Of a DNA stretch of 62,168 bases, positions 16,091-52,000 are shown piece by piece. The notes beneath the pieces are model-generated. The model was given only the letters and a program-made list of their open reading frames with translations. It did not search any database and had not been told where the DNA came from. Origin of the DNA: a virus; IMG/VR virus record IMGVR_UViG_3300042887_001901, positions 1 through 62,168 of that record. One strand, 5' to 3'. Position 1 is the first letter of the stretch, and each line of letters opens with the position of its first letter. A program made the translations under genes and the position numbers.

Positions 16091-16091
16091 T

Positions 16092-17773: not shown

Positions 17774-17777
17774 TGTT

Positions 17778-26338: not shown

Positions 26339-27231
26339 GTAAAAAAACAGCCTGCGTAGTATATTATACTGATGACAGATATGATGAATTAGCTAAAAAC
26401 GTTAAAAATAGTTTCTTAGCACATAACGGTGAGGAATGTGATTATCACCAAATTGATTATACTAATCAAGAAGAATATAATAAATTATTAGAGTATTATG
26501 AATTTGCTCCTGAAACATTCTTGATGCAGTTTATTTATGCTTATGAAATAATGAAAAAACATAATTATGAAAAGATAATTGTGTTAGGGACTGATACTAT
26601 TGTTTGTAACAGACTAGATGAATTTTTAAATGATAACACTACTCCAGTACTAGCATCTTTAAACTACCCAAATCAAGATGGAACTGAACATTGGATTACT
26701 CCATTAGTTCAAGTAACATTACCTGATGGAAATGTAGTAATGGATCATATGAATATTAATGCTGATGTAACTTGCTTTAATAGCGCTGATGCTTTAAAAA
26801 AGGTAATTGATTTAAGTATTGAACATTATTGTCATTTCTCAATTCAAGGTGGGTTAAATGAATTAGCATTTGTTGATAAATCATATGAAGTTAAAATTGT
26901 AGATGCACCTTACCCAACTAGTAAAGTAGTATACAATGCTCGCTCTAAAGGTGTGTTTGGTACTGATATGATTAGAAAAGGATTATTAGCCAAATATGGT
27001 CCTCAATATGATGGACAACCATCACCTATTAGACATTGGTATGTTAATGATAACAAATTATATACTCATGACCATAAGCAAATTAAATGCTTTCACTTCG
27101 TAGAAGGGTTAGGGGGTCGACCAATTGAATCATTTAAAGAATTAATTAATGACTTTAAAACCAATTGGTTCAATGAAGACACAATTAAGTTCTTTAAAGA
27201 ACAATGTGGATGTTCAGAATTCTTTAATTAA
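26335..27231 (+). CDS. GT8-like glycosyltransferase
   Basis: 298 aa. The N-terminal half looks GT-A: CVVYYTDDRYDELAKNVKNS, EFAPETFLMQFIYAYEIM, and IIVLGTDTIV as a DxD-like region. Near the C-terminus CFHFVEGLGGRPIE resembles the HF-G--KPW motif of GT8. Assignment is tentative within GT-A enzymes. Confidence 0.55.
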   Translation: MSKKTACVVYYTDDRYDELAKNVKNSFLAHNGEECDYHQIDYTNQEEYNKLLEYYEFAPETFLMQFIYAYEIMKKHNYEKIIVLGTDTIVCNRLDEFLNDNTTPVLASLNYPNQDGTEHWITPLVQVTLPDGNVVMDHMNINADVTCFNSADALKKVIDLSIEHYCHFSIQGGLNELAFVDKSYEVKIVDAPYPTSKVVYNARSKGVFGTDMIRKGLLAKYGPQYDGQPSPIRHWYVNDNKLYTHDHKQIKCFHFVEGLGGRPIESFKELINDFKTNWFNEDTIKFFKEQCGCSEFFN

Positions 27232-27240
27232 ATTTAGTGT

Positions 27241-29501: not shown

Positions 29502-30121
29502 ATTTAAAAAAACGAATAGCAGAAATTGCTTATAAAAACAAATTAGGACACTTAGGAAGTTATTTTTCTAGTGTTGGAATTATAGATGAAATCTATTCTA
29601 AAATGGATAAAGATGATATATTCATCTTATCTTCAGGACATGCTGCTTTAGCATTATACGTTTGTTTAGAAAAATATAAAGGACAAGATGCTGAAGCATT
29701 ATTTATTAAACATGGTGGTCATCCTCACAGAGATGAAGAATGTGAAATTTATTGTTCTACAGGATCATTAGGTTTAGGTTTATGTGTTGCTTTAGGTAGA
29801 GCAGTAGCTAATCCAAAAAGAAAAGTTCAAGTATTAATTAGTGATGGTGAGTGTGCTGAGGGTAGTATTTGGGAGGCCTTAAAAACTATTAAGGAAGAAG
29901 GTATTACTAATATAGAAGTTCATGTTAATATAAATGGATATGCTGCTTATAAAGAAGTAGATGCATTATATCTTGAACAAAGATTAAAAGCATTCCTACC
30001 AGAAATTAAAATACACCATACAAATGTAGAGCAATATTCATTCTTAAAAGGATTAAATGCTCACTACCACGTAATGAATGAAGAAAATTATAATGAAGTT
30101 TTAAATTCAAACAATGACTAG
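29495..30121 (+). CDS. split transketolase, N-terminal (TPP pyrophosphate) half
   Basis: 208 aa, thiamine-diphosphate domain: GHLGSYFSSVGIID, LSSGHAALALYV, YCSTGSLGLGL and ISDGECAEGSIWEAL (the GDG metal/TPP motif). Shorter than usual split transketolase A subunits (about 270). It overlaps the partner gene by 8 bases and should form the active enzyme with it. Transketolases move a two-carbon ketol unit. Confidence 0.8.
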   Translation: MVNLKKRIAEIAYKNKLGHLGSYFSSVGIIDEIYSKMDKDDIFILSSGHAALALYVCLEKYKGQDAEALFIKHGGHPHRDEECEIYCSTGSLGLGLCVALGRAVANPKRKVQVLISDGECAEGSIWEALKTIKEEGITNIEVHVNINGYAAYKEVDALYLEQRLKAFLPEIKIHHTNVEQYSFLKGLNAHYHVMNEENYNEVLNSNND

Positions 30122-30593
30122 AAAATTATTTGCCCAATTATTACTTGATGAGATGGCTGTTAATGATGACATCTATCTTATTACAGGAGACTTAGGATAT
30201 GGTTTGTGGGATAAAATTAGAGATACCTTTCCAGATAGATTTTTCAATGTAGGTTCATCTGAGATGGCTATGATGGGTATGGGAGTTGGATTAGCGATGG
30301 AGGGTAAAATTCCTTTCGTATATTCAATTACACCGTTTGCTATTTATAGACCATTTGAAATGATTCGTAATTATTTAGATCATGAAAAAATACCTGTAAA
30401 TATTATTGGTGGAGGTCGAGATCAAGATTATGGTTACTTAGGTTTCTCACATTGGTCCGAAGATGATAAGAAATTTATGACTCAATTTAATAATATTGCT
30501 AACGCCTGGCCTGAAAATGAAGATCATTTACAAAAATGTATGGACTACTGCTTGGAAAAAGTAGGTCCAGTATATATAAACTTAAAACGATAA
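30114..30593 (+). CDS. split transketolase, pyrimidine-binding half
   Basis: 159 aa: ITGDLGYGLWDKI, FNVGSSEMAMMGMGVGLAM (with the conserved Glu that activates TPP), PFVYSITPFAIYRPFE and YGYLGFSHWSEDD. It corresponds to the middle transketolase domain and lacks most of the C-terminal third domain (about 300 aa usual). With a 4-keto-3,6-dideoxy sugar pathway next door, a two-carbon branch on a sugar is possible (inference). Confidence 0.78.
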   Translation: MTRKLFAQLLLDEMAVNDDIYLITGDLGYGLWDKIRDTFPDRFFNVGSSEMAMMGMGVGLAMEGKIPFVYSITPFAIYRPFEMIRNYLDHEKIPVNIIGGGRDQDYGYLGFSHWSEDDKKFMTQFNNIANAWPENEDHLQKCMDYCLEKVGPVYINLKR

Positions 30594-31363
30594 TGAGAAT
30601 ATTAATTACAGGAGCAAATGGCTATATAGGTAAATCATTACATACTGCTTTAAAAGATAAGTATGATGTAACAGCAATTACTAGAAATGGTTTTGATTTA
30701 ACGGATGCTGTTGCTATGTTTAAATTTTTCCAAAGTAGACAAAACTTTGATTTAGTATTACATTGTGCTGTAGCAGGTGCTGCTAATCCAAGAGATACTA
30801 ATTGGAATATTGCAGATACTAATTTAATAATATATTATAATTTATTACAACATAAAAATCATTTTGCTAAATTAATACACTTTGGATCTGGAGCTGAAAC
30901 CCACCTTCCAGATACGCCTTATGGGTATAGCAAAAAGGTTATTGCTAAGTCTATCCTAAATCAAGATAACTTTTATAACATTAAAATATTTGGTATATTT
31001 GATGAAAATGAATTAGATACTAGATTTATTAAGGCTAGCTTAAAACGATATATAGCTAAAGAACCAATTCAAATTCATCAAGATAAAGTAATGGATTTCT
31101 TCTACATGCAAGACTTAGTTAATGTACTAGAATATTATATGAGTGAAGAAAATCCACCTAAAGAATTTGATTGTGCTTATAATGAATTTTATTCATTAAA
31201 AAATATAGCAGACATTATTAATACTTTAGATGAATATAAGGTTGAAATTAATATTGAAAAAGAAGGTAGGGCTATGTATAAATCTAATTATCGTAGTGTA
31301 TTACCAATTGATTTAATTGGGTTAGAACAAGGAATTAAAAACGTATATGATAAGTTGAAATGA
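30593..31363 (+). CDS. NAD-dependent epimerase/dehydratase
   Basis: 256 aa from ATG 30593, which overlaps the transketolase stop by one base; a longer frame from 30536 would overlap by 58 bases. MRILITGANGYIGKSL is the NAD loop, DLVLHCAVAGA, and YGYSKKVIAK the YxxxK-like catalytic site. The C-terminal sugar domain is present. Similar to reductases/epimerases of O-antigen clusters. Confidence 0.75.
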   Translation: MRILITGANGYIGKSLHTALKDKYDVTAITRNGFDLTDAVAMFKFFQSRQNFDLVLHCAVAGAANPRDTNWNIADTNLIIYYNLLQHKNHFAKLIHFGSGAETHLPDTPYGYSKKVIAKSILNQDNFYNIKIFGIFDENELDTRFIKASLKRYIAKEPIQIHQDKVMDFFYMQDLVNVLEYYMSEENPPKEFDCAYNEFYSLKNIADIINTLDEYKVEINIEKEGRAMYKSNYRSVLPIDLIGLEQGIKNVYDKLK

Positions 31364-32244
31364 ATATAAAAATAAAAATACATTATATGCCTTGGGAAGT
31401 AGACTATGCTCTACTTCAATTTATGCAACTTAAAAAAGCATCACAGCATTTGAGTGATGATATTTACTTTCATATTGGTTTAAATTTATCATCTCATATT
31501 ATTAATTGGAACGAATCTAAATTACCTAAAGAATATTTCATTAATAAGTTTAATGCTAATCTTAAGATGTTAGATTGGGCTAAAGATGTAAATGTTACTA
31601 TATATGAGGGAGATGAGTTATGGGGTCATTTAGATTTAGAAAAAACACAAATGGATCCTAAAATTGATTATTACATGTCAATTTGCCCTGATATGTGGTT
31701 CCATGAATATGCTTTATTCTATATTATAGAGGCAGCTAAACAAATTAAAGACAAACATTTCATTATTACCCCAGAAATTCATAAATTATGGGACTGGACG
31801 TGGGATGAATTGGTAAATGATAATTATCAAAATGTATCTTACAGTGATTGGAATAAATCAGATATATTTGAAATACAATCTAGAGCATTAGGTGAACCAT
31901 ACTTACAATTAACATCACGCTTTAAATATGCTGGTTGGTTTGATTTGTATAGTAAAGATTTTATGGAATTAATTCCAATACCTGATGACTGGAAAGGATA
32001 CGGCCCTTGGGATTACTATAGTATGCTAGTTTCAGATATAGCTGTTAAAAATGGTATTGATATTAAAGAATATGTTTTAAAAAACCAAATCATATTTGAA
32101 TATCATCCAAATAAAGAAGATAAAAGTAATTTTGCAGATTATTATAAAGACTTACTTTCACTAAATAAAATAGAAAATCAAAGACAAGTTGTAGAATCAA
32201 AATTCTCTCATTATATTGAACAATGGACAAACAAAAACTTATGA
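31360..32244 (+). CDS. putative glycosyltransferase-like protein, unclassified
   Basis: 294 aa, rich in Trp, Tyr and Asp, with IHYMPWEVDYALLQFMQLKKA at the start, a possible GT-A core (YYMSICPDMWFHEYALFYI) and KGYGPWDYYSML. This looks like an uncharacterised transferase found in phage or capsule clusters; I cannot name a family. Overlaps previous (4 bases) and next (4 bases) genes. Confidence 0.4.
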   Translation: MNIKIKIHYMPWEVDYALLQFMQLKKASQHLSDDIYFHIGLNLSSHIINWNESKLPKEYFINKFNANLKMLDWAKDVNVTIYEGDELWGHLDLEKTQMDPKIDYYMSICPDMWFHEYALFYIIEAAKQIKDKHFIITPEIHKLWDWTWDELVNDNYQNVSYSDWNKSDIFEIQSRALGEPYLQLTSRFKYAGWFDLYSKDFMELIPIPDDWKGYGPWDYYSMLVSDIAVKNGIDIKEYVLKNQIIFEYHPNKEDKSNFADYYKDLLSLNKIENQRQVVESKFSHYIEQWTNKNL

Positions 32245-33164
32245 AAAAATTTATAGTAACAACAACAATTAATCATCCTACAGAAGCAACTCTTAAATTT
32301 ATTGAAATTGCTAAACGTGATAATTGGCACTTTGTAGTAGTAGGTGATACTAAAACACCACACGCTGAATATGAAAGATTAGACTGTATTTACTTACATC
32401 CAAATAATCAAGAATTGACGTATCCTAAATTAAGTAAGATTATTGGTTGGAAAACAATTCAACGTCGTAATATTGGATTCGTTTATGCTTATGAACATGG
32501 AGCTGATGTAGTAGCTACAGTTGATGATGATAATATTCCTTATGATAATTGGGGAACTGATTTATATGTTGGTAAGGAAGTAGAAGTAGATTATTACACT
32601 AACAAAGAACTTTTAGTATTTGATCCATTATCTGTAACTAATCAATCTAACTTATGGCATAGAGGATTCCCAATCGATTTATTGCCTTACAAAAATCTTA
32701 TTGAATATAAAGGTAAAAAGAAAATTACACCATTAATTCAAGCAGATTTATGGGATGGTGATCCTGATATTGATGCAATGTGTAGATTATCATTTAAACC
32801 AATTGTTAAATTCGATACTACATCTCCATTTGCTGCAGCTGAAATATCTCCATTCAACTCTCAAAATACATTCATTCATAGAGATGCTTTAAAGCATTAT
32901 GCAGTATGGCCTTATGTAGGTAGAATGGATGACATTTGGGGTGGTTATTATGCTCAAAAGATGATTGGTGATGATAAATTAATTTATAATAGAGCATCTG
33001 TTTATCAAGATAGAAATGTTCAAGATTTAATTACCAATTTAGAAAAAGAAATTATTGGATATAGACACACATTAGACTTTACTAAATTTCCAAACATCAC
33101 TAGTGATTATATTCCAGCAAAAACTAAAGAATTCTTAGACATTTATTTTAATAGTTTTAAATAA
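32241..33164 (+). CDS. STELLO/RGP-like (GT75-type) glycosyltransferase
   Basis: 307 aa from ATG 32241 (ATGA overlap); ATG 32223 in frame is less likely. VTTTINHPTEAT, VVVGDTKTP, RRNIGFVYAYEHGADVVAT in pieces, then VDDDNIP as the metal-binding DDD, and IQADLWDGDPDIDA are features of reversibly glycosylated/STELLO-type proteins, including UDP-arabinopyranose mutases. Mutase or transferase role not decided. Confidence 0.6.
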   Translation: MKKFIVTTTINHPTEATLKFIEIAKRDNWHFVVVGDTKTPHAEYERLDCIYLHPNNQELTYPKLSKIIGWKTIQRRNIGFVYAYEHGADVVATVDDDNIPYDNWGTDLYVGKEVEVDYYTNKELLVFDPLSVTNQSNLWHRGFPIDLLPYKNLIEYKGKKKITPLIQADLWDGDPDIDAMCRLSFKPIVKFDTTSPFAAAEISPFNSQNTFIHRDALKHYAVWPYVGRMDDIWGGYYAQKMIGDDKLIYNRASVYQDRNVQDLITNLEKEIIGYRHTLDFTKFPNITSDYIPAKTKEFLDIYFNSFK

Positions 33165-34033
33165 TGAAAATATCAGCAGTTATAGTATCCCGAAATGATG
33201 GATACGGAGGACATTTAAACGAAAGAGCAACATATTGCTTTAATTCAGCAATTGATACTTACGATGAAGTAATTTATGTAGACTGGAACTCAGAAACTCA
33301 TAGCTTACTTTATGATATTAAGGATAATATCAATTTTAAGGGTAACTTTAAGCATATCGTTATTACACCTGAAGTAGCCTCGTTATTAACTAACAACGAC
33401 CCATACGCTCAAAAATGTTGTGAGGTGTTAGGACGTAACATTGGATTAAGACGTGCTACAGGAGATTATTTAGTATCAACTAATATTGATATTATTCATC
33501 CAAAACGTGATCAATTAGAAGAAACAATCGCTCAATTAGACCCTAAAACATTCTATACCATTAGTAGAAGACATGCTGATTGGAATATGATTAAGGAATT
33601 TCATAATGGTGAAATACCATTTGCAGAATGGAAACCATTAAGAGAACATTTAATTGCCACTTCAGAAGAACGTCACTTTGAGGAAACAACTGTAAGTGGA
33701 GACAATTATAGTATTATTAATTGCTGTGGTGATTATCAAATTGCATCACGTGAGGTATGGAACACAATTCGTGGATTTGAAGAAGAATTAATATACGCTT
33801 TATTCGCTGATACTAATGTTCAAAAGAAAGCATTAATGCATGGGCTTGGATTAAAAGCAATATATAACCCAGCATTATTCCATATTGAACACGGCAAGGG
33901 TGGTGGTGGATTCTTAGATGGTATTAATAAGAAAACAAATGACCAATACAGAGCGGTAATATATCAACAACAAACAGAAAATACTGAGTCATGGGGATTT
34001 GGAGATACTGAAATTGAATTTGAAATATTCTAA
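33164..34033 (+). CDS. GT2-like glycosyltransferase
   Basis: 289 aa GT-A fold: ISAVIVSRNDGYGG, DEVIYVDWNS, LGRNIGLRRATGDYLVSTNIDII in pieces, where NID replaces the usual DxD. SRRHADWN and the C-terminal LKAIYNPALFHIEHGKGGGG fit GT2 proteins of galactosyltransferase type. Last gene of the glycan run; it overlaps the previous stop by one base. Confidence 0.65.
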   Translation: MKISAVIVSRNDGYGGHLNERATYCFNSAIDTYDEVIYVDWNSETHSLLYDIKDNINFKGNFKHIVITPEVASLLTNNDPYAQKCCEVLGRNIGLRRATGDYLVSTNIDIIHPKRDQLEETIAQLDPKTFYTISRRHADWNMIKEFHNGEIPFAEWKPLREHLIATSEERHFEETTVSGDNYSIINCCGDYQIASREVWNTIRGFEEELIYALFADTNVQKKALMHGLGLKAIYNPALFHIEHGKGGGGFLDGINKKTNDQYRAVIYQQQTENTESWGFGDTEIEFEIF

Positions 34034-37922: not shown

Positions 37923-38249
37923 ATGGCGTGTCATTGTTTAACATTAAAGGATCAACGTGAATTCTTTCGATTAATGAAAGAAAGGGATAGCGATTTGATA
38001 CTTAAAATGGTTAAATGTGTACTTAGTGCATATAAGCGAAATAAAGACGGAATTGATATATTTGATATCACATTCAAAGATATGAGTGGCATGGTATTTA
38101 ATATTGAAAAATCGCAGTACACTGATTTATTATCCAATTGTTTAAATGATTTAATTGCAATTGAAGAATATGAACTATGTGCTGATATTAAGAAAATATT
38201 AGATAAGAAATCACGTAAAAAACATGGGGATGCCCTGGAATTGATTTAA
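37923..38249 (+). CDS. unknown protein overlapping the tmRNA 5' end; paralogue of the 34962 gene
   Basis: 108 aa. DGIDIFDITFKDMSG..., YTDLLSNCLNDLIAIEEYELC align with the 34962-35261 protein. The last eight codons (GDALELI plus stop) lie inside the tmRNA gene, which begins at 38226. The C-terminal basic run KKSRKKH is just before the overlap. The end may be an accident of read-through into the RNA gene, since the coding sense of the overlap is fixed by tmRNA structure. Function unknown. Confidence 0.5.
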   Translation: MACHCLTLKDQREFFRLMKERDSDLILKMVKCVLSAYKRNKDGIDIFDITFKDMSGMVFNIEKSQYTDLLSNCLNDLIAIEEYELCADIKKILDKKSRKKHGDALELI

Positions 38250-38583
38250 TTGTAGAGGTAATACCACACGTAGACAAAGTAAGAATGTCTTTAAATACTT
38301 GCAAAACAATAACCGTAGAATTATCTACCATGACCTTCGCAGACTTAATGTCTTTCGTAGGCGCTGACGAGTACGCATACGCGGCTTAATAAGCATCGGG
38401 TGTAACATCCTAGGAACAGAAGTTACAAGCTAGGTTTTCTTTGTAGTCGTAAAACAAAGTGGTGGTAACTGGTACTTAACTGTACGGCCCTTTACTGATC
38501 AGCTTAAAATGTAGATCTAAACGTGTGACACGCTGGTATAGCTGTCTCTATTAAAGACAGGGGTTCGACTCCCCTCATCTCCA
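38226..38583 (+). ncRNA. ssrA: tmRNA (trans-translation RNA)
   Basis: 5' acceptor GGGGATG pairs with 3' CATCTCC, with G-U as third pair, the alanine identity signal. The T-arm is AGGGG-TTCGACT-CCCCT, and A is the discriminator base, with no encoded CCA. The tag frame ends GADEYAYAA followed by TAATAA at 38387-38392. Upstream AAATACT at 38293 is like the resume region of Bacteroidota tmRNAs; the frame then opens TGC AAA ACA from 38300, giving a 29-residue tag (CKTITVELST...). The resume codon is inferred from frame only. It should rescue stalled ribosomes and mark proteins for proteolysis. Confidence 0.92.
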
Positions 38584-38587
38584 CTGC

Positions 38588-38645: not shown

Positions 38646-39137
38646 ATGAAACAGCTTGCTATAGTTGTTTTCGCATTACTAATCAGTTTTGTAGGAAACA
38701 CGCAAGTTACTCCTACAAAGCTATACATCAGTAGCGTAAACAATTTAATCAAAGTCGGACCACTAACAAATAACACAAACCTAGCGTTTGGTGTTAAAAA
38801 CATTCTTGAGGAAGCTACTCAAGATAAAGGTTACTCTATTGTGACTGATAGATGGGATGCTGATTTGGTTTTAGATATCGACATTATTTATTTTGATATT
38901 GAAAAATCAAAAACTAATATATCCATATTTCACAGAGATGAAAATGCAGTTGTAATTAGAATGAAAGGCCAAGTTACAAAAGATGGTAAAGTTATAAAAA
39001 ATGTTCTTGTTGAAGACAGTTCAAGTGAAATAGTTGCGTCAACTGGTTTAGTTGCGACCGATGGTAAATTTAATTCTACAGTATCAAGAAACGCTATTAA
39101 AAAAACATGCGTATTGGTTGTGTCTAAACTTTTTTAA
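38646..39137 (+). CDS. secreted CsgG-like/periplasmic protein
   Basis: 163 aa with a signal peptide (MKQLAIVVFALLISFVGNTQ). LAFGVKNILEEATQDKGYSIV followed by ADLVLDIDIIYFDI and the end FNSTVSRNAIKKTCVLVVSKL resemble the nucleotide-binding-like fold of CsgG and relatives. The C-terminus parallels the protein at 43470 (FNQSTISICTKKALDIACARIL), so the two are probably related. First gene of the exported block, after the tmRNA terminator and a TATATTTA element at 38616. Confidence 0.55.
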   Translation: MKQLAIVVFALLISFVGNTQVTPTKLYISSVNNLIKVGPLTNNTNLAFGVKNILEEATQDKGYSIVTDRWDADLVLDIDIIYFDIEKSKTNISIFHRDENAVVIRMKGQVTKDGKVIKNVLVEDSSSEIVASTGLVATDGKFNSTVSRNAIKKTCVLVVSKLF

Positions 39138-39140
39138 GAC

Positions 39141-41273
39141 ATGAAGAAATTATTAGTATTATTGCTTACATTAGTAAGCTTTGGAGCAGTAGCACAAAAT
39201 CCAATTAAATTTAGAGCATTATCATCAGTAGGTGGAGCTACACTTGATAGAGGAGGTACATTTGAGTACATCGTTCAAGCAAATGGTAACAGCAATGCTA
39301 CCACACGTCAGGTATTGGTTGATATGCAATATGACAAAGATAACTTTGAATTAGTATCTGTTGCTCATACTGGAACTGGTGGTAATGGAGGTATATTACC
39401 TGGAGGATCAACAATCAGTTTAAGTTACTATAACTATCCAGGATATACATTTACAACAGTATCATCAGGCAATAGTGCTAATAACACAACAAATGGTACT
39501 ACTAACTACCAATATGCTCAATATACATTTAGTAATACAAGTGCAAATGCTATTTTAAGAACCACATTAACATGGTCTACTACAGCAGCAATGCCGTATA
39601 CTAGCTATGATAGATTGATTGTATTTACATTTAGATTAAAAGCGGCATCAACTGCTTACACATTCAATCCAATCAAATTAAACTTCGTTTCCGCTTGGAA
39701 TGCATCAGGAGCTCAAGAGGCTACTTTAATGGAATCTCCTTTATCAACAGCAGTATTAATGAACCAAAACTTTGGTAAATTTGTAAGTGCTAAAGTTGAT
39801 TTAAACTCAAACTTATACAATTTATCTAGTTTAAAAGTATCATTTAGAGATACAGCAACAAACCAAGGACAATTATTCTCAGTATTAGCTGATGGTACTG
39901 TTGATGTTAATCAAGGACTATTAGCTGCTAGCAAAGTTTATGATGTTAGTTTAATGCATGAAATGGATAAAATATACACTATATATAATAGTGCTATTAC
40001 AATATCTGATTTCTCAACAGCACAAGCTGAATTTACATCTATGGGCTTAACAGCAACTAAAGGTGTTAACTTAAATACAGGTCAAGCATTATATGCTGCT
40101 GATATTAATAGAAATAAAGCAATTGATGGCGGTGATTTACCTAGATTATTAGGTCAAGTAGCAGGTAAAGACACATTAATGACACTACCAGCAGGTTATA
40201 CAGCAGGTAGTGGTGGTTGGATGAGTTTACCAACTTGGAGAGCAGCAGACGCTACTACAACATGGGGTCAAACAGAATGGGCTTATGTTTCTCCAAATAG
40301 TTACTCTACAGGAGTTAGTGCTTTAAGAATTGATATGAGAGAATTTCCAGCTGGAACAACTCCAAATCAAGTAAAAAGTGTTCAATTATTTGATGTTTAT
40401 ACAGGTCCCGTTGAATATATGAGTGAAGATGCTGCTTGGGCTGTATATAAAGTACCATCTACATTTGCTAAAGCAACAGACGGAACTTCAACTTATGCTG
40501 CTTATATAAGACAAAACACTACAGATTATAATTTCAGAGCTGAATTTGAATTTAATACTTCAGTTGATAATTCTTGGGGTGCTATTACAACTTCAAACTG
40601 GAATAACATTACATATCCTAAAACATACTTTAAAACAGGTACTTTAGGTGCAAACGCTGTATTAGATCTTAAATATCTTTTATGGGGTGATGTAAACCGT
40701 TCTCACTCATCTCAAGTAGTAACTACAGCAGGTGGTTCAAGTACAATTCAAACAAATGCTATTCCAAGTTTACAAATGAATATGGCATTTAATGAAACAA
40801 CAAGTAAAATGTCAATGGCATCTACAGGACCATTTATCAATACTAACTTCGCTTACACTTCAATTGATGTTAATTTAGCTAATCAAACAGTAACTGGAAA
40901 TATAGTTGAAATACCAGTTAATATTGATACTAAAGGTAATAGTATGGGAGGTTTACAACTTGAATTTGCATATGATCCTACTAAGATTAAATTTGAAGAA
41001 ATGATTTCAAATGTACCTAACAGTTGGTTTGTATTTGCAAATGCTAAAGAGGGTGTAGTTAAATTTGGAGCATTAGATCAAAATAATAGTAATCCAATTA
41101 AAGGAATAAACATACCATTTAAATTAAAATTCTCAACTATTGGTAATGGTGTTGATGTATTAACATCATTAAAAGTATCTCAAACAATGGATGCTGCTGA
41201 TAATAAGGGTAATCAATTAGGTGTAGTTTTAAATATGACAAACATTAAATTAACAGGATATAACAATTTCTAA
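39141..41273 (+). CDS. secreted cohesin/dockerin-type protein, 710 aa
   Basis: Signal peptide to AVAQ (19). The N-terminal domain (FEYIVQANGN...RQVLVDMQYDKDNFELVSV) and C-terminal domain (about 580-710; VEIPVNIDTKGNSMGGLQLEF, AYDPTKIKFEEM) both read as cohesin-like beta sandwiches. ADINRNKAIDGGDL (320-333) is a full dockerin-type calcium loop (D321, N323, N325, D332), and WGDVNRSHSS is a second, weaker one. The protein may self-assemble or bind partners outside the cell. No type IX secretion tail is obvious. Highly unusual for a phage gene. Confidence 0.7.
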   Translation: MKKLLVLLLTLVSFGAVAQNPIKFRALSSVGGATLDRGGTFEYIVQANGNSNATTRQVLVDMQYDKDNFELVSVAHTGTGGNGGILPGGSTISLSYYNYPGYTFTTVSSGNSANNTTNGTTNYQYAQYTFSNTSANAILRTTLTWSTTAAMPYTSYDRLIVFTFRLKAASTAYTFNPIKLNFVSAWNASGAQEATLMESPLSTAVLMNQNFGKFVSAKVDLNSNLYNLSSLKVSFRDTATNQGQLFSVLADGTVDVNQGLLAASKVYDVSLMHEMDKIYTIYNSAITISDFSTAQAEFTSMGLTATKGVNLNTGQALYAADINRNKAIDGGDLPRLLGQVAGKDTLMTLPAGYTAGSGGWMSLPTWRAADATTTWGQTEWAYVSPNSYSTGVSALRIDMREFPAGTTPNQVKSVQLFDVYTGPVEYMSEDAAWAVYKVPSTFAKATDGTSTYAAYIRQNTTDYNFRAEFEFNTSVDNSWGAITTSNWNNITYPKTYFKTGTLGANAVLDLKYLLWGDVNRSHSSQVVTTAGGSSTIQTNAIPSLQMNMAFNETTSKMSMASTGPFINTNFAYTSIDVNLANQTVTGNIVEIPVNIDTKGNSMGGLQLEFAYDPTKIKFEEMISNVPNSWFVFANAKEGVVKFGALDQNNSNPIKGINIPFKLKFSTIGNGVDVLTSLKVSQTMDAADNKGNQLGVVLNMTNIKLTGYNNF

Positions 41274-41275
41274 TT

Positions 41276-41632
41276 ATGAAAAAAGCAACATTAATAATGG
41301 TTATGTTCTTAGCGGTGGCTTGTACAAAGATTGCTCCAACACCACAACAAGTAATTGATTTAGGTGTACAATCACAAGCAACCAGTATTAAATCAGTTGT
41401 TCAAACAAATAATACAGTAACAGCTGTATTTGAAACAACACCAGGTGCTAAGTATTCAGTACAAGTAATCCCGTTTGGTAGTGATAAACCTGCATTTAAA
41501 GAAGGATTCACGGCAAGCGACGCAACAACACAGAAAATATATAATTTGTCAACTTTAACAAAGAGTGACTACGATTTAATATTTATCGATATAAGTGGTA
41601 AAGAAATTAAATACCCAATCGTAATTAAATAA
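41276..41632 (+). CDS. lipoprotein, FN3-like
   Basis: 118 aa; lipobox LAVAC with Cys16. The rest is a small beta sandwich (TVTAVFETTPGAKYSVQVIPFG, YDLIFIDISGKEIKYPIVI) of fibronectin-III character. Two bases after the cohesin-type gene, suggesting the two act together at the envelope. Confidence 0.6.
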   Translation: MKKATLIMVMFLAVACTKIAPTPQQVIDLGVQSQATSIKSVVQTNNTVTAVFETTPGAKYSVQVIPFGSDKPAFKEGFTASDATTQKIYNLSTLTKSDYDLIFIDISGKEIKYPIVIK

Positions 41633-41643
41633 AATTAATAAAA

Positions 41644-41955
41644 ATGTCAGAAGAAGTAGAAAAATCAGAAAGTACCGGTGGTTCAATTAAGAACATACTT
41701 ATCGGTTTAGTATCAACAATCACATTAGGTGTTGGTGGTTGGTTTACAACTAAATTAACAGGTGGTGACAAGGAAGAAGCTCCAGTACAACAAGCAGCTC
41801 CAGTAATTAATATTACTAATAGCAACCAACAGTCTCAAGCTGCAGGTGGTAAAACAGTAATTATTAAAGAAAAGGAAGTAGCAGCTAAACCAGCAGCTCC
41901 AGCTAAACCTAAGAAAGAAGCTGACGAATTTAAAGAGAAACCAGCAGCGTGGTAA
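41644..41955 (+). CDS. single-pass membrane protein with Ala/Pro/Lys tail
   Basis: 103 aa. Acidic N-terminus, one membrane segment (IKNILIGLVSTITLGVGGWF), then a disordered linker with Ala, Pro, Lys and Gln (AAKPAAPAKPKKEADEFKEK). Layout is like spanins or small inner-membrane anchors. It precedes holin-like genes, so a lysis role is possible. Confidence 0.5.
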   Translation: MSEEVEKSESTGGSIKNILIGLVSTITLGVGGWFTTKLTGGDKEEAPVQQAAPVINITNSNQQSQAAGGKTVIIKEKEVAAKPAAPAKPKKEADEFKEKPAAW

Positions 41956-41975
41956 TAAAAATAAAATAAAGTAAA

Positions 41976-42581
41976 ATGGCAGAACAACCAAGTGGTTTTA
42001 AAGACCTATTAAATAAAATGATGAGCCGTAGATGGTATATTACGGCAATGGTATTGGGTGGGTTTATGTTTATCATAGGAGGTATGTTTGCCGCTATTGC
42101 TGCTAAAACAGAAATAGCTGGTGAATGGAAAGAATTAATATTATTATTATTAGGTGCTTTTATTGGTAGCTACGGTAAAATTATTGATTACTGGTTCTCT
42201 GATACAGATAAAGATAAAATGTTAGTTCAGAAAATGGATGAGGAAGATGGTATAGCATTAGGTAGTGTTAATGATATTAAAGAAAGTAACAAACCATTCA
42301 CTCCATTAATTCCAGATGCATTCGTTCAAGGTGCTCAAGCAGCTAGAGAATTAGCAGCTGTTGAAAATAAGCAAAAGTTCGAATTGAAAAAAGATCAACA
42401 AGAACATGATCAAGCTTTAGAAGCAGACGCTCAAGAGCATGATCAAGAAATGGAAAAATTAGAATTCGAACACCACGCTCATAGACAATGTCAACATGTT
42501 TGGGGTGATTCAGATAACGATGGTGAATTAGAGTGTCAAAATTGCGGTCTATTAAAAGACTTCTACGATGACTCTCATTAA
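41976..42581 (+). CDS. two-TM protein with coiled coil and zinc finger
   Basis: 201 aa: two membrane segments (YITAMVLGGFMFIIGGMFAA and LILLLLGAFIGSYGKIIDYW), a long charged coiled coil rich in Gln, Glu, His (about 120-168), and a C-terminal zinc ribbon CQHVWGDSDNDGELECQNCG. The first half is holin-like; the zinc finger on a holin-like protein is unusual. Could be an anchor with a cytoplasmic nucleic-acid- or protein-binding end. Confidence 0.5.
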   Translation: MAEQPSGFKDLLNKMMSRRWYITAMVLGGFMFIIGGMFAAIAAKTEIAGEWKELILLLLGAFIGSYGKIIDYWFSDTDKDKMLVQKMDEEDGIALGSVNDIKESNKPFTPLIPDAFVQGAQAARELAAVENKQKFELKKDQQEHDQALEADAQEHDQEMEKLEFEHHAHRQCQHVWGDSDNDGELECQNCGLLKDFYDDSH

Positions 42582-42602
42582 TAAAAATTAAAAATTAAAA
42601 GT

Positions 42603-42842
42603 ATGACTTTCAAACAATGGGTGATCGACCTTTTCAAAGATGAAAGAGGAGCAATCTCAGTTAAACCAGTTATTGCCTTCGTAGGTGCAATGTTTTTATG
42701 TGTTACAATGATTTTAAACTCATTCTCACATGCAGACTTTGCTCCCTCACCTGAATTAGTAAATGCAGTAATGATTATTACTGGTATTGGAATGGGTGCT
42801 GATACATTTGATAAGTTCTCTCATAAGAAAAAAGAAGATTAA
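42603..42842 (+). CDS. holin-like protein
   Basis: 79 aa with two membrane segments (VKPVIAFVGAMFLCVTMIL and LVNAVMIITGIGMGADTFDKF), charged N-terminus (FKDERGAIS) and Lys-rich end (KKKED). Size and topology fit a phage holin. No endolysin is nearby in the window. Confidence 0.55.
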   Translation: MTFKQWVIDLFKDERGAISVKPVIAFVGAMFLCVTMILNSFSHADFAPSPELVNAVMIITGIGMGADTFDKFSHKKKED

Positions 42843-42846
42843 TCAC

Positions 42847-42866
42847 AGGGGTCTAAAACGACCCCT
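42847..42866 (+). terminator. hairpin, probable terminator
   Basis: AGGGGTC/GACCCCT 7-bp stem, 6-base loop; the U-tract is short (TTTAAT), so efficiency is uncertain. Confidence 0.6.
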
Positions 42867-42880
42867 TTAATATACAGTTT

Positions 42881-43048
42881 ATGAAACAAAAATTATTCGA
42901 AGGGTTTGTAAAGTTAGCATTTGCATGGACAGTATTTGCTTTATCATTTCAAGTTACAATGTTAACTTTAAGTGTAACAAATCCTAAATTAGCAACAAAA
43001 ATCGGTAACGAATTAACTTGGGCTATTGACGGTCGATTTAATAAGTAA
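42881..43048 (+). CDS. small membrane protein, 55 aa
   Basis: ATG 42881 to TAA 43046-43048. MKQKLFEGFVKLAFAWTVFALS gives one membrane helix, then a short polar end (PKLATKIGNELTWAIDGRF). Located between the hairpin and another membrane protein. Function unknown. Confidence 0.5.
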   Translation: MKQKLFEGFVKLAFAWTVFALSFQVTMLTLSVTNPKLATKIGNELTWAIDGRFNK

Positions 43049-43052
43049 AATT

Positions 43053-43466
43053 ATGATAACAACAGCATTAGTAATATTAATGATAGCTTACCTAGTATCT
43101 TGGGTAATATATCAAAAACATCAGTTTCTAGAAAGAGATTTATATGCAACTGACCCTCAAACAGCATATGAAATCCATAATAAAAAGTGGCATTTCTGGA
43201 AAGGTGTAAACCAAGGTTGTGTGTATGGTATAGTATTTTTAGGGTTCGGATTTAAAATGATGGTGATATTTGCAGTATTATTTTGGGCTGGGTTTGATTT
43301 ATTCTGTAATAAAATTGTATTAAACAGACCTTGGTTATCTGTAGGTAAAACAGCTGATACAGATCTATTTATTAGAAAAGTAGCAGATGTAATTCATATC
43401 AAACCAGAGTATACTTCTTTATTAATCAAAGCAGTAATTTTATTAGCTGCAATTATATTATTATAG
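43053..43466 (+). CDS. membrane protein, about three TM segments
   Basis: 137 aa from ATG 43053; an in-frame ATG at 43026 would overlap the previous gene. Hydrophobic segments TTALVILMIAYLVSWVI, VYGIVFLGFGFKMMVIFAVLFWAGF and the C-terminal LLIKAVILLAAIILL. Function unknown. Confidence 0.5.
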   Translation: MITTALVILMIAYLVSWVIYQKHQFLERDLYATDPQTAYEIHNKKWHFWKGVNQGCVYGIVFLGFGFKMMVIFAVLFWAGFDLFCNKIVLNRPWLSVGKTADTDLFIRKVADVIHIKPEYTSLLIKAVILLAAIILL

Positions 43467-43469
43467 TGT

Positions 43470-44186
43470 ATGAAAAATTTATTAGTATTATTAGGGTTAT
43501 TCTTAACTATAAGTGCAACTGCCCAAACTGTAGGAAGCACTAAAACAGAACAATATAAAGCATCGTTTGAAACTGCTATTGACATTAGTCAATTTATGGA
43601 TTATGAAGGTAAACAAATACCAATTCAAATCCTTAAAGCAGGTATTAGTGATGAGATATATGAAATGTATCCTGAATTAAAAGAAAAACGTGTTGGGTTA
43701 GGTGTTGCTAACATTACAATGGAATACCTAGAAAACTTAAACCGATTCAAATTTACAGAAGATAAAACTGAAATTAAGAATCGTATGGTTAAACAATTCC
43801 AAGCATCAGCAGCAGGTATTTCTGAAAATAAATTAGATGGTAGAGGTAAAATCAACTTAGCTGAATACTTCGTTACAGTTGAATGTTATGATTATTCAGT
43901 ATCTGAAGACGAAACTATCAACTTAAAAGACGGTATTAAAGATAATTTAGTAACTCGTTTAGGTTTACAAGTTAGATTTACTAACGCTGAAACAGGGGTT
44001 GTATTTGGAGCATCTGGTTTAGGTGAAGCCACTACAAAACGTGAATTAACTTTACTATCAGACGCAACTATAGATCCAATTAAATTTAACCAATCAACAA
44101 TCAGTATCTGTACTAAAAAAGCACTTGATATTGCTTGTGCTCGTATTTTAAAGAGAATGGTTGATAAAAAAATATTCGATAAGTAA
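43470..44186 (+). CDS. secreted CsgG-like protein
   Basis: 238 aa with signal peptide (MKNLLVLLGLFLTISATAQ) but no lipobox Cys, unlike true CsgG. RVGLGVANITMEYLENLNRFKF, a LAEYFVTVECYDYSV strand and ETGVVFGASGLGEATTKRE follow the CsgG/curli-assembly core. CsgG forms an outer-membrane secretion pore; whether this one does is unknown. It ends in the same helix type as the 38646 protein. Confidence 0.6.
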   Translation: MKNLLVLLGLFLTISATAQTVGSTKTEQYKASFETAIDISQFMDYEGKQIPIQILKAGISDEIYEMYPELKEKRVGLGVANITMEYLENLNRFKFTEDKTEIKNRMVKQFQASAAGISENKLDGRGKINLAEYFVTVECYDYSVSEDETINLKDGIKDNLVTRLGLQVRFTNAETGVVFGASGLGEATTKRELTLLSDATIDPIKFNQSTISICTKKALDIACARILKRMVDKKIFDK

Positions 44187-44293
44187 TGGCAAATAAAAAA
44201 CCAAAACCTCGTTCAATGCGTAGCAGACGCTCTGGAGTTAAAAAAGCAGAATTAGTTAAGGCTAATCAAGTTATATTAAGTAAATTAAAATAA
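44186..44293 (+). CDS. very small basic protein, 35 aa
   Basis: ATG 44186 overlaps the previous TAA by one base; MANKKPKPRSMRSRRSG... ends at TAA 44291-44293. Strongly basic with Arg/Lys; may bind nucleic acid or be a fragment. Retained because both junctions are tight. Confidence 0.4.
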   Translation: MANKKPKPRSMRSRRSGVKKAELVKANQVILSKLK

Positions 44294-44294
44294 C

Positions 44295-44576
44295 ATGAGA
44301 TTATTATTATTAATATTATTTCTTGCTCTAGCAGGATGTACTTCACTACAATACGTGTATGTAGATCCTAAAGATTCAGTAGTTAAAAAACAAAGAATAA
44401 TATACGATTATCAGTATACACCTTTATTTTATAATACAATTCCATATTATAATCCAATTATAATTCAAAGATGGGGTGTGCCTAGATACCAACCACAACG
44501 TTGGATACCTCAAAGACCAACTCATCGCTTTGTTCCACAAAGACAATTACCTCCTCGTCCATCTAGAAAAAGATAA
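44295..44576 (+). CDS. lipoprotein with Arg/Pro/Gln-rich tail
   Basis: 93 aa. Lipobox LALAGC with Cys15, then Tyr- and Pro-rich sequence (YDYQYTPLFYNTIPYYNPI) and a basic RPTHRFVPQRQLPPRPSRK end. Probably outer-membrane anchored. Stop overlaps the next ATG. Confidence 0.55.
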   Translation: MRLLLLILFLALAGCTSLQYVYVDPKDSVVKKQRIIYDYQYTPLFYNTIPYYNPIIIQRWGVPRYQPQRWIPQRPTHRFVPQRQLPPRPSRKR

Positions 44577-45385
44577 TGAAATACTTATTAATCATATTAT
44601 TCCTATTACCTACATTAGTATTCTCTCAAGATTCAAAGAATAGAGAGATGCAAATGCAAGTAAATAACTTACAACCACCTCCACCACCACCTCCTGGACC
44701 AAGGGGTTCATTAGTTAAAACAAATGCATTCTTAACATCATCTGACTTTGTATTCTTACAAAAACCAACTTATGTAGGTGGATGGTTACAAGCAATATCA
44801 TTAGGTGGAGGCAGATCATCAGCAAATGGCGTTTACTCATATGGTGGAAATGGGTTTGCAACAACAGATGGTTCTCAGTTAGGTATTTCTGGATTTATAT
44901 CTAAAGGCAACAATAATTTATTTCTATCTTATGTTGAGTTAGCTAAAAGTAGAACAACAACAGCTACATATGTAAAAATGTATAAAGGTAAATGGAATAA
45001 AGGATTCGGTATTAATTTATCTTCGTCATTTACGCAAGTTGCAAATTCCGATTCATTACCCCCAATGCATATAGTAGCACCTTCGATGATGTTGTTCATT
45101 AATAGAACATTCACTGCAGGTAAATTTACAATAACACCTGACTTATTACTTAGTTATTCAAATCCTTATTTTGATGCAGGTAAAAATTCAGTGACATTTT
45201 TAGGAGCTGAAAGATGGATCGGATTTCAATATGATCCAACATTCAATGCTTTAGTTGGTACTTCATTTGGATATAAATTATCTAAAAGATTTATATTATT
45301 AGTTGCTTATAGAGGTAATATAAATACTAATCCAAAATTTGGGTTAATGAATAATATCTCAATAGGTAACAAATTTAATTTATAA
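44576..45385 (+). CDS. outer-membrane beta-barrel-like secreted protein
   Basis: 269 aa. Signal peptide (MKYLLIILFLLPTLVFSQ), proline run (QPPPPPPPGPRG), then alternating strands typical of a small OM barrel. The last part (LVGTSFGYKLSKRFILLVAYRGN) resembles the end of the 45386 protein. It may be a porin-like or adhesin base. Confidence 0.55.
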   Translation: MKYLLIILFLLPTLVFSQDSKNREMQMQVNNLQPPPPPPPGPRGSLVKTNAFLTSSDFVFLQKPTYVGGWLQAISLGGGRSSANGVYSYGGNGFATTDGSQLGISGFISKGNNNLFLSYVELAKSRTTTATYVKMYKGKWNKGFGINLSSSFTQVANSDSLPPMHIVAPSMMLFINRTFTAGKFTITPDLLLSYSNPYFDAGKNSVTFLGAERWIGFQYDPTFNALVGTSFGYKLSKRFILLVAYRGNINTNPKFGLMNNISIGNKFNL

Positions 45386-46759
45386 TTGAAAAAGTGGCTA
45401 ACAAGTCTATTAATATTAGTTTCGTTCATATTCGCCAATAAGGCGAATGGTCAATTTATTACTCAAACCTACATTGATCCCTGTGACTCTAAAGTTTACA
45501 CAGTATTAGTTCCTATAGCATCAAACCAACCTGGTGTAGTCGTACTTATTAGAAACAAATCAAGAACATTTACATATGCTGATTTTGCTTCGGGTACAGT
45601 AACTAAATGGATCAGTGAAATATTTGCAACTCCATGTCCTACAAACACAGCAGTACAACAAACAATAACGGCGAATGTAGCTCAAGCCGCCTCAGCAGCA
45701 GCATCATCTGCAGCAAGCGCAGCTTCATCCGCAGCCTCTTCAGCTGCAAGTTCAGCAGCTTCATCAGCGTCATCATCAGCAAGCTCAAGTGCATCAAGCG
45801 CCGCATCATCCTCAGCTTCCACCACCTCAACTTCCAGTGGTTCAACATCTCAATCTTCAACCTCATCGGGCTCATCGTCATCCTCCCAATCGTCATCGTC
45901 TTCTGGGGAATCATCTTCATCAGGTTCAAGTTCGGAGAGTTCAGGATCAAGCAGCGAAACAAAAAGCGAGAGCAGTTCCGAGAGCAAGTCAGAAAGCAAA
46001 TCGGAGTCGAAAGAAGAATCTAAATCTGAGTCTAAAGAGGAAAAAAAAGAAGATAAAAAAGAGGAAAAGAAAGATGATAAGAAAAAAGATGAAAAGAAAC
46101 AATTACGATTAAATCCAATATTAGTTAACTCAGACTTAACTACAGCTCAAAACCCAACAGGTGGTTTTACACCTATAGTATCATTAGGTATGTCTTCAGC
46201 ATCAGCAGCAGGCGATGCGAGTTGGGGTTTATCAAGTATGATTTACGCTGATTTGAAATCATTTGCATTATCCGGTAACACTAGTAATATGGTGATGGAT
46301 AAGAAAGGTGGATTAAAAGCAATTAAAGCATATTCATATACATTCGCTTGGATGAATGGTATTCCAATGACATTTGGTGGTTATACTTACGTTATGCCTC
46401 ATCCTAAATACGGTGTAATGGGTTATAACTTATCAATTATTAATATTAAACTTAAAGGTGCAGATAGCTACTCATATCAGTTCGCATCGTCGACTACAGG
46501 CTTCTGGACTAAACCTTATCCGTTGCATAACAAATCAACGGTATCCCCAGGGGTCTTCATTATGGGTTCCCCGTATTCATACAATACGGAAACCGGAGGC
46601 TCCTGGAACTATAACATAGCTGGGTTAGTAGGTGTTGGTTATTCATTACAATTGTCAAAGCGATTCGCATTTGCCATTGATTGGAAAATTAACGCATCAA
46701 CGGTACCCAATTCACCAATATTAAATTTCTTCATGATTGGAGCAAGAACTATGTTCTAA
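45386..46759 (+). CDS. secreted Ser/Ala-rich stalk with barrel-like C-terminus
   Basis: 457 aa from TTG 45386 directly after the previous stop. Signal peptide (MKKWLTSLLILVSFIFA), a Cys-containing N-domain to about 95, then about 70 residues of Ala/Ser repeats, a Ser/Gly/Glu run, a Lys/Glu run, and a beta-rich domain ending GARTMF with the terminal Phe of OM barrels. LVGVGYSLQLSKRFAFAIDW parallels the 44576 protein. Looks like a surface stalk anchored in the outer membrane. The GC-rich repeat is prone to length variation. Confidence 0.6.
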   Translation: MKKWLTSLLILVSFIFANKANGQFITQTYIDPCDSKVYTVLVPIASNQPGVVVLIRNKSRTFTYADFASGTVTKWISEIFATPCPTNTAVQQTITANVAQAASAAASSAASAASSAASSAASSAASSASSSASSSASSAASSSASTTSTSSGSTSQSSTSSGSSSSSQSSSSSGESSSSGSSSESSGSSSETKSESSSESKSESKSESKEESKSESKEEKKEDKKEEKKDDKKKDEKKQLRLNPILVNSDLTTAQNPTGGFTPIVSLGMSSASAAGDASWGLSSMIYADLKSFALSGNTSNMVMDKKGGLKAIKAYSYTFAWMNGIPMTFGGYTYVMPHPKYGVMGYNLSIINIKLKGADSYSYQFASSTTGFWTKPYPLHNKSTVSPGVFIMGSPYSYNTETGGSWNYNIAGLVGVGYSLQLSKRFAFAIDWKINASTVPNSPILNFFMIGARTMF

Positions 46760-46769
46760 GATTGGAGAT

Positions 46770-46802
46770 GGCAGAATTAGGTTGTATATTTAAGTATAAA
46801 TA
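46770..46802 (+). promoter_or_regulatory. two-block promoter
   Basis: GGCA 46770, TTGTATATTTAAG from 46782, TATAAATA 46795-46802; drives the lipoprotein at 46813. Confidence 0.7.
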
Positions 46803-46812
46803 AAAACATATT

Positions 46813-46971
46813 ATGAAAAAATTATTAGCAATCGTAGCAGTAGCTACATTGACAGCTTGTGGTGGTGCTTCTACTACAGCAACAACGGATTCAACTGCAG
46901 TAGCAGTAGATTCAACAGTAGTAGCGACAGATTCATCTGCAGCAGTAGTTGACTCAACTACAACTAAGTAA
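46813..46971 (+). CDS. small Thr/Ser/Val-rich lipoprotein, 52 aa
   Basis: MKKLLAIVAVATLTACGG with lipobox Cys16, then a repetitive TTDSTAVAVDSTVVATDS tail. ATG 46813 to TAA 46969-46971. Own promoter and own terminator, so expressed alone and probably strongly. May coat the outer membrane. Confidence 0.65.
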   Translation: MKKLLAIVAVATLTACGGASTTATTDSTAVAVDSTVVATDSSAAVVDSTTTK

Positions 46972-47023: not shown

Positions 47024-47389
47024 ATGTGGAAAATTAAAGAATATACTAGAAAAATTAAAAACCTAATTAGATGGGCTCCAATTATATGGAAAGACCGTGA
47101 TTGGGATTATTATTTCATCTACGAAATATTAAAACACAAACTCATATTTACTGAGGAATTTATTCGTGAGAAAGGTGTTCATATGTTTAATACTGAAGAT
47201 GCTGATAGTATTTTAAAGGCAATTGATTTAATAAATAAAGCACAAACCGAATATCATCTTGATAAATACTTATCAGAAGCAACTGAGTGGACTACTGAAG
47301 GTATAGATAAAGCAGTAGAAGATCATGACAAAATAAAACAAGAATTATTCCAGCATTTGAATGATAACATTGAAAAATGGTGGGATTAA
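47024..47389 (+). CDS. conserved-style phage protein, 121 aa
   Basis: IRWAPIIWKDRDWDYYFIYEIL and a C-terminus LNDNIEKWWD are a combination I associate with uncharacterised proteins of many tailed phages. Mostly helical and acidic. Function unknown. Confidence 0.55.
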   Translation: MWKIKEYTRKIKNLIRWAPIIWKDRDWDYYFIYEILKHKLIFTEEFIREKGVHMFNTEDADSILKAIDLINKAQTEYHLDKYLSEATEWTTEGIDKAVEDHDKIKQELFQHLNDNIEKWWD

Positions 47390-47399
47390 AATTATAATT

Positions 47400-47648
47400 A
47401 TGAAAGAATACATTGCACCCCTATTACGATTTGGAGCGTTAATATTATTATTAACTACTATTTACGAACAAAATAACGCCATAAACGAATACAAAGCAAA
47501 AGCTAGTGTTAACATTGATAGTTTGCAAAATGAATTATTTATTAATCAATCTAATGTTGGTAGATATGAGACTGCATTAGGACTATTGAGTGAAGAGGAT
47601 AGTGTTGCTGCTAAAAAATTTGAAGATAAACTAAGCGAAACCGAGTAG
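47400..47648 (+). CDS. small single-pass membrane protein
   Basis: 82 aa from ATG 47400 (MKEYIAPLLRFGALILLLTTIYEQ); an in-frame ATG at 47361 would overlap the previous gene. One membrane helix then a charged helix. Topology recalls small lysis or assembly proteins. Confidence 0.5.
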   Translation: MKEYIAPLLRFGALILLLTTIYEQNNAINEYKAKASVNIDSLQNELFINQSNVGRYETALGLLSEEDSVAAKKFEDKLSETE

Positions 47649-51370: not shown

Positions 51371-52000
51371 ATGAAGAAATGCCTATTAGCTCTGTTATTA
51401 TTAGTTAGTTTTACAGTTACAGCTCAAGATGTAGTTATACTAACACACAAAGCGTACACAACGCACTACAGTAAATCAAAACACTATCCGGTTAAAGTTG
51501 AATGGTGGATTACTAAAGCAGGCTTAACATGCCCTGTTAAAGTAAAACGCGGTGATAAATTCATTGCTGACCCAAAATTACCAACTGAAACAAATTTACA
51601 ATCAGATTATACAGGCGCTGGGTTCGATCGCGGACACAATATGCCTGCAGCTGACGTTGTATGTGATCAAGTAGCAAACGAAGAATCATTCTTCTTCAGT
51701 AATATGACTGCTCAATACCCTGCATTAAACAGAGGTGATTGGAAATCATTAGAGATGTTATCTCGTGAAATTGCACTTAGAGACGATTCAGTTAAAGTAT
51801 GGTGTGGTTCAGTAGGCGTAGCTAAGAAGATAGGTACAACATCAGTACCAACTCAATGTTGGAAAGTAGTTTATACTAAGAAGACAAAAGAATACATGGC
51901 ATTTATATTTGATAACAATACAACTAAAGCAGACGGCATTCACAATAATCAAGTCGATCTAATTGATGTTGAAAAATTAACAGGATTTAAGTTTAAGTAA
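51371..52000 (+). CDS. secreted DNA/RNA non-specific endonuclease (NucA/EndA type)
   Basis: 209 aa with signal peptide (MKKCLLALLLLVSFTVTAQ). The beta-beta-alpha-metal motif DRGH (86-89) gives the general base H89; N120 in SNMTAQYPALNRGDW coordinates the metal. Close in size to small bacterial NUC enzymes. Export suggests a role outside the cytoplasm, such as digestion of competing or host-released DNA. Confidence 0.85.
   Translation: MKKCLLALLLLVSFTVTAQDVVILTHKAYTTHYSKSKHYPVKVEWWITKAGLTCPVKVKRGDKFIADPKLPTETNLQSDYTGAGFDRGHNMPAADVVCDQVANEESFFFSNMTAQYPALNRGDWKSLEMLSREIALRDDSVKVWCGSVGVAKKIGTTSVPTQCWKVVYTKKTKEYMAFIFDNNTTKADGIHNNQVDLIDVEKLTGFKFK

Follow-up and report, generated by a model that had tools for sequence, protein, structure and literature searches.

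Genes of the curli, or type VIII, secretion system (T8SS) have been described in pelagiphages and methylophages, among them HTVC008M and Melnitz (PMC7029224; PMC9599517; PMC9004378). These lytic phages encode a recognisable CsgG, 37-40% identical to that of Escherichia coli, together with CsgF and curlin-repeat proteins, and the cluster has been proposed to modify infected cells at their envelope or surface. Phages of Bacteroidota provide two further precedents: Cryophage proteins with a C-terminal sorting domain, presumed to use the type IX secretion system (T9SS) of the host (PMC7468147), and adhesion genes in a contig of a T4-like marine Bacteroidetes virus, from which a host-aggregation hypothesis was drawn (PMC7198788). 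Here we analyse a block of genes for exported proteins at positions 38646-46971 of the virus record IMGVR_UViG_3300042887_001901, a stretch of 62,168 bases (the window, at its full length) taken as part of a large phage. The block is one operon and a conserved module, not a chance cluster, and the same tight set of exported-protein genes is common to many large viruses of aquatic Bacteroidota. On balance, it is probably the window's copy of a phage-specific module for export across the envelope and display on the infected cell, and is best read as neither a curli operon nor a set of ordinary virion parts.

Like the T8SS clusters of pelagiphages and methylophages, the module contains an exported protein with a predicted CsgG fold (csg238) and may alter the surface of the infected cell. 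It differs in that csg238 is not CsgG by sequence, no CsgF or CsgA was found, and a barrel, cohesin/dockerin proteins and a lectin are present instead. The likeness to Cryophage cargo is limited to one clade of relatives, that of Flavobacterium phage vB_FspM_immuto (hereafter immuto), in which a C-terminal sorting domain is present; Cryophage cargo consists of enzymes and a PA14 protein in variable islands, whereas the module is a conserved multi-gene unit and the clade of the window lacks the sorting domain. The marine Bacteroidetes case is a single contig with curli genes and ubiquitous surface proteins, and no module of cohesin, lectin and barrel was described there (PMC7198788). Searching the literature, without most subscription papers, we found no published description of the module or of phage cohesin/dockerin modules.

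The block holds 14 open reading frames (ORFs) on a single strand, spaced by -23 to +53 bp, mostly by less than 40 bp. Eight of the encoded proteins (163, 710, 118, 238, 93, 269, 457 and 52 amino acids, aa) have a hydrophobic N-terminus followed by a signal-peptidase or lipobox motif, as called by a simple heuristic and not by SignalP. This recovers, in place, the eight exported proteins of a preliminary description made from the sequence, including its three lipoproteins of 118, 93 and 52 aa. The main features are as follows.

38646..39137, + strand: csgA163, exported, 163 aa, putative second CsgG-superfamily member, YajG/Lipoprotein_16-like (PF03923 in the homologue of locus L013; hhalign to the 238-aa family)
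39141..41273, + strand: coh710, exported scaffold of cohesin/dockerin type, 710 aa (sub-threshold PF00963; family matches)
41276..41632, + strand: lp118, 118-aa lipoprotein after the cohesin gene, positional counterpart of the k13 lipoproteins of relatives (lipobox)
41644..41955, + strand: m103, 103 aa, one predicted transmembrane helix (alignment A4)
41976..42581, + strand: m201, two-transmembrane protein with cytoplasmic coiled coil and Cys/His ribbon (from sequence)
42603..42842, + strand: h79, two-transmembrane, holin-like (weak phage holin match, E 0.084)
43026..43466, + strand: m146, four-transmembrane-like (hydrophobic segments in the sequence)
43470..44186, + strand: csg238, exported protein of predicted CsgG fold, signature gene of the module (AlphaFold2, Foldseek)
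44295..44576, + strand: lp93, Tyr/Pro/Arg-rich lipoprotein, accessory (lipobox)
44576..45385, + strand: bar269, second exported barrel-like protein (26-29% BLAST identity to barrel-type ORFs)
45386..46759, + strand: bar457, exported; N-terminal DPC...C domain, stalk and predicted C-terminal 12-strand barrel (AlphaFold2, Foldseek)
46813..46971, + strand: lp52, small Ser/Thr/Val-rich lipoprotein, accessory (ORF and lipobox)

A search with csg238 among pattern-matched viral contigs returned 491 stretches encoding a relative, of which the best 80 were kept, and a second search with the immuto protein as query gave 80 further, more divergent loci. The ORFs of 162 loci (numbered with the prefix L) were clustered by the Louvain method, which may merge or split families, and strict counts with length limits on ORFs were made for the 86 loci with full flanks. 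All 86 encode a cohesin-type protein and a barrel, 85 the second CsgG-like protein and at least 80 m103, the m103 figure being an undercount by at least one, since the DNA of L003 has an m103 match that was lost in ORF selection. Module genes in these loci are always on the csg238 strand; other genes within 7 kb are on the opposite strand in 275 of 1058 cases (26%). When csg238 was grouped at 93% identity (47 clusters, 39 with full flanks) the same picture of co-occurrence was obtained. The loci share ancestry, and such counts are not independent trials. All module genes tested are under purifying selection, with ratios of nonsynonymous to synonymous substitution (dN/dS) of 0.07-0.40 where dS is unsaturated, and this, together with the near-invariant co-occurrence, places the block far beyond chance. 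The preliminary description had called for a check of the whole set across related phages, which the counts for cohesin, barrel and second CsgG-like protein now provide; its remark on the rarity of such a set in phages is incorrect for this lineage, in which almost all loci examined have it.

Gene order is also conserved. The usual order in the window clade is csgA163, one or more cohesin genes, one or more lipoprotein genes, m103, m201, csg238 and barrel; in the immuto clade it is cohesin gene(s), m103, csg238 and barrel, followed downstream by csgA163 and, in many cases, a lectin/dockerin gene. Contigs with the module reach 336 kb. The closest cultured relative carrying csg238 is immuto itself (160 kb; 50% identity in csg238), and among INPHARED phages only immuto isolates encode the family. 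A scan of about 85,000 species genomes, which finds close relatives only, returned csg238 in two, both on contigs of metagenome-assembled genomes (MAGs): L164, which is clearly phage (tail-collar, endolysin and topoisomerase genes), and L163, a short contig. Both appear to be phage contigs with the module placed in bacterial MAG records, likely a binning artefact. In Flavobacteriaceae a csg238 profile matched one of 300 genomes, through a phage-like contig (same MAG), and ordinary CsgG was found in 16 of 60. The second CsgG-like family was found in one of 200 genomes, and with the barrel profile three more matches were obtained, weak and partial. A bacterial operon as the source was rejected, as the genome matches of csg238 comprise the one phage-like contig in 300 Flavobacteriaceae and L164.

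Structural models were built with AlphaFold2 on low-depth alignments. For csg238 (mean predicted local distance difference test score, pLDDT, 76.6; predicted template modelling score 0.71), Foldseek placed CsgG at the top of the PDB matches (6l7c, E 7.9e-7; 4uv2 and 4uv3, about 1e-6; probability 1.00), at low TM-scores of 0.35-0.48. PelC, HpaA, FlgT and LptE followed, all of one superfamily, and the sole match below 0.001 in a viral structure library was a phage CsgG (E 1.1e-6). The predicted fold of csg238 is thus of CsgG type. Sequence comparison is far less telling: the Pfam CsgG family (PF03783) does not match the window protein and is reached by two of 44 relatives (best 1.9e-4), profile-profile alignment (hhalign) of the csg238 family with CsgG gives a probability of 15 in the expected register, and csg238 as a single sequence aligned with E. 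coli CsgG only in the signal peptide. The relation between the two CsgG-like families, as the preliminary description had it, is borne out by hhalign (probability 96, E 2.8e-9), profiles being needed for it, since alignment A1 with the single csgA163 sequence was uninformative; the L013 homologue of csgA163 passes Lipoprotein_16 (PF03923; 3.8e-6, 27.2 against a cut-off of 25 bits).

The preliminary description had invoked CsgG as an outer-membrane pore, which for csg238 is doubtful. Window csg238 has no lipobox cysteine (a lipobox-like motif occurs in 29 of 158 relatives), and its model has one long first hairpin with invariant acidic residues E146 and D147 and a short second hairpin region; the hairpins look soluble. 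Because the first hairpin is acidic and the second region short, we infer a periplasmic role, like that of PelC or of the periplasmic domain of CsgG, rather than that of a curli pore. PelC, LptE and YajG share the CsgG-like superfamily fold. PelC and LptE are soluble proteins that assist an outer-membrane barrel; both rank below CsgG among the Foldseek matches, and a partnership of csg238 with bar457 would be analogous.

The better candidate for a pore is bar457. Its N-terminal domain has a conserved DPC...C pattern; a low-complexity stalk some 150 residues long follows (Ser/Ala/Lys/Glu, disordered and of low confidence at about 86-239), and the AlphaFold2 model has 12 strands at 245-455. Its best PDB match by Foldseek is FapF (5o68, E 1.1e-4), the exporter of Pseudomonas functional amyloid, followed by the EspP autotransporter domain. 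Like FapF, bar457 would place a 12-strand outer-membrane barrel after a long periplasmic N-terminal segment; the two differ in sequence (about 9% identity), in a modest TM-score and in the N-terminal domain, and partners of the Fap operon had no Pfam match among the block proteins scanned. A working resemblance to curli or Fap export is possible. The preliminary description had named two barrel-like proteins, one with a Ser/Ala stalk. The model agrees for bar457, stalk included; the case for bar269 is an alignment of about 220 aa, at 26-29% identity, with barrel-type ORFs of L027, L038 and L060, by which it appears to be a shorter relative of these, and a 273-aa protein similar to bar269 is found in the L164 module.

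The scaffold proteins are best understood through relatives of the window. In coh710 the C-terminal cohesin (about 584-696) matches PF00963 below the cut-off (E 6.4e-4, 20.4 against 24.1 bits), and one calcium-loop-like dockerin motif near 317-343 is clear by eye. The cohesin/dockerin assignment of the preliminary description stands for relatives, in which the domains are real, with the window cohesin falling short of the threshold. Among 26 proteins of the scaffold family, cohesin was detected in 20 (best 1.3e-11), the T9SS sorting domain in 10, dockerin in eight (weak, best 2.3e-4) and lectin in five. Cohesins exceed the Pfam cut-off in immuto gp015, L115 and L164 (L154 is just under it), and in the first three a sorting domain above cut-off follows them (2.4e-8 to 1.9e-11). 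Dockerin (PF00404) in relatives reaches 13.1-19.3 bits where shown, below the cut-off of 22.9. Immuto gp013 and its relatives combine a C-type lectin (3e-15 to 1.4e-16) with dockerin-like loops. Diversification of the lectin by a retroelement was rejected, no reverse transcriptase being found in 14 related records of 131-336 kb.

Each of six immuto-clade genomes (131-309 kb) has exactly one sorting domain, and in immuto and L154, the genomes with coordinates compared, this copy is the module's own. None was found in eight sampled window-clade genomes, nor in coh710 by the Pfam/hidden Markov model (HMM) scan (PF18962). A fused sorting domain without companion lipoprotein is seen in 76 loci and an unfused arrangement with lipoproteins following in 64, never both. 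Of the k13 lipoproteins, 25 of 72 match the sorting-domain HMM below 0.01 (down to 1.3e-4), and cohesin and lipoprotein genes are equal in number (1:1 or 2:2) in 58 of 71 loci. No such match was obtained for lp118 (best 0.77), and its parallel to k13 therefore rests on position and size. The accessory lp93 was found in 15-16 of the first 82 loci.

Two membrane proteins are likely parts of the module. The m103 family, present in 141 of 162 loci, has an Asn/Pro/Ala-rich tail and an invariant C-terminal Trp (alignment A4); the m201 family is found in 87 loci and in 24 of 39 dereplicated clusters, with shorter forms of about 116 aa in relatives. The preliminary description missed both as probable module parts, along with the link to T9SS sorting domains in relatives and the C-type lectin partner. 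m146 is specific to the window phage, the window record being the only related locus to have it. Scans of the block proteins against PHROGs and NCBIfam gave no useful family, and sequence searches of the PDB gave no match. PADLOC models matched none of ten module proteins, and a known defence or anti-defence role was rejected on this ground.

If the module works in export and display, the scaffolds would be exported through the Sec pathway during infection and would be carried to or held at the outer membrane by the barrel, with the CsgG-fold proteins as a ring or adaptor in the periplasm and m103/m201 as an anchor in the inner membrane. For the sorting-domain scaffolds of the immuto clade, the carrier would be the host T9SS, instead of or together with the barrel channel. 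Cohesin-dockerin pairing would then give the infected cell a layer or fibre that bears lectin. The likely benefits, not separable here, are that neighbouring hosts adhere or aggregate, or that receptors are masked and superinfection is hindered. A more specific and more tentative version, to which we would not give even chances, is an undescribed phage-specific secretion and display machine in which barrel, CsgG-fold ring and m103 anchor export the scaffolds, alone or with the host T9SS, as an adhesive coat on infected Bacteroidota.

Several points weigh against export and display. The evidence consists of sequence, predicted folds and gene context. Although bar457 accompanies csg238 most constantly and is the leading candidate for a channel, this function is read from a fold whose model has a pLDDT of 62 and TM-scores to FapF of about 0.4, and twelve-strand barrels may also be simple porins or enzymes. 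The window scaffold lacks a sorting domain, so its export route is a proposal only, and the split and fused arrangements of the sorting domain track two clades and are not independent evidence. The module is also often near lysis genes, as would suit a role in lysis. The main rival is such a role, with barrels and CsgG-fold proteins piercing or weakening the outer membrane late in infection alongside holin, endolysin and spanin; it owes this rank to the many holin-like and endolysin genes nearby and to the same action having been proposed for CsgGF of methylophage Melnitz (PMC9004378). h79, which like m201 is a two-transmembrane protein, lies within 5 kb of a csg238-type gene in 61 of 74 occurrences and a putative endolysin in 53 of 76. 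We nevertheless consider this rather unlikely: it leaves no role for cohesin, dockerin, lectin and T9SS sorting domains, and the endolysin has the opposite orientation in 19 of 76 loci, whereas module genes always share one strand. h79 probably belongs to the neighbouring lysis function. Two further observations concern this neighbourhood: a 95-aa protein with an N-terminal transmembrane segment and coiled coil (47361-47648) is a candidate inner-membrane spanin, and a DNA/RNA endonuclease G-like protein with a signal peptide (51371-52000; L002 9935-10513) is often near the module in related phages.

Superinfection exclusion could act through exported lipoproteins and surface lectins that mask receptors or block DNA entry, with no dedicated channel. 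Several small lipoproteins, one of which weakly matches the Cor-type exclusion family phrog_1119 (E 0.041), and the surface lectin of the immuto clade would fit, but the most constant parts (two CsgG-fold proteins, 12-strand barrel and m103) would not be needed, and exclusion as the only function is unlikely. Virions commonly display C-type lectin and Ig-like folds, and the cohesin and lectin proteins might be fibres or decorations of the particle. This is very unlikely, as nearly all members of every exported family have hydrophobic, signal-like N-termini, and signal peptides argue against assembly in the cytoplasm; a T9SS sorting domain is present, and the immuto module sits among replication and nucleotide-metabolism genes rather than structural genes. 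None of the block proteins looks like an ordinary virion part; their detection solely as such parts is what the preliminary description had named as counting against it. Least probable of all, and highly unlikely, is a true but divergent curli system secreting amyloid fibres. CsgG is the best fold match of csg238 and FapF that of the barrel, and T8SS genes do occur in pelagiphages (PMC9599517); yet CsgF, CsgE and curlin repeats had no Pfam match among ten block proteins scanned, and the csg238 family stands apart from CsgG in its low hhalign probability, the missing lipobox of the window protein and the short second transmembrane hairpin region. A genuine curli operon was rejected, no CsgF, CsgE or curlin partner being found among the proteins scanned and the resemblance to CsgG being at the level of fold.

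Other features of the window lie outside the module. Just upstream (38226-38584) is a phage transfer-messenger RNA (tmRNA) gene with an unusually long predicted tag. Conserved tags of 23-24 residues, e.g. DELSTMTFDDLMAFVGADYALAA, are found in the window and in L006, L013, L026, L029, L035, L037, L051, L065 and L075; two relatives have usual 8-residue tags (L003 ANEYALAA, L008 AEEYAYAA). About 20 kb (14633-34033) resemble a surface-polysaccharide locus, with glycosyltransferases, sugar epimerases/nucleotidyltransferase, a transketolase-like pair and an aminotransferase. As read from the sequence, adjacent IscU-like and IscA-like iron-sulfur assembly ORFs, unusual for a phage, lie at 2970-3703, and genes for a small heat-shock protein, GroES-like and GroEL-like proteins follow one another at 9062-11485.

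If export and display is correct, widespread large aquatic phages reshape the surface of infected Bacteroidota, hosts that are major polysaccharide degraders, by an export operon of their own, going beyond the partial curli genes of pelagiphages. Roles would be gained for several abundant families of unknown phage proteins, and immuto on Flavobacterium LMO8 would provide a cultured model for phage control of the outer membrane, the T9SS-dependent surface and cell-cell contacts.

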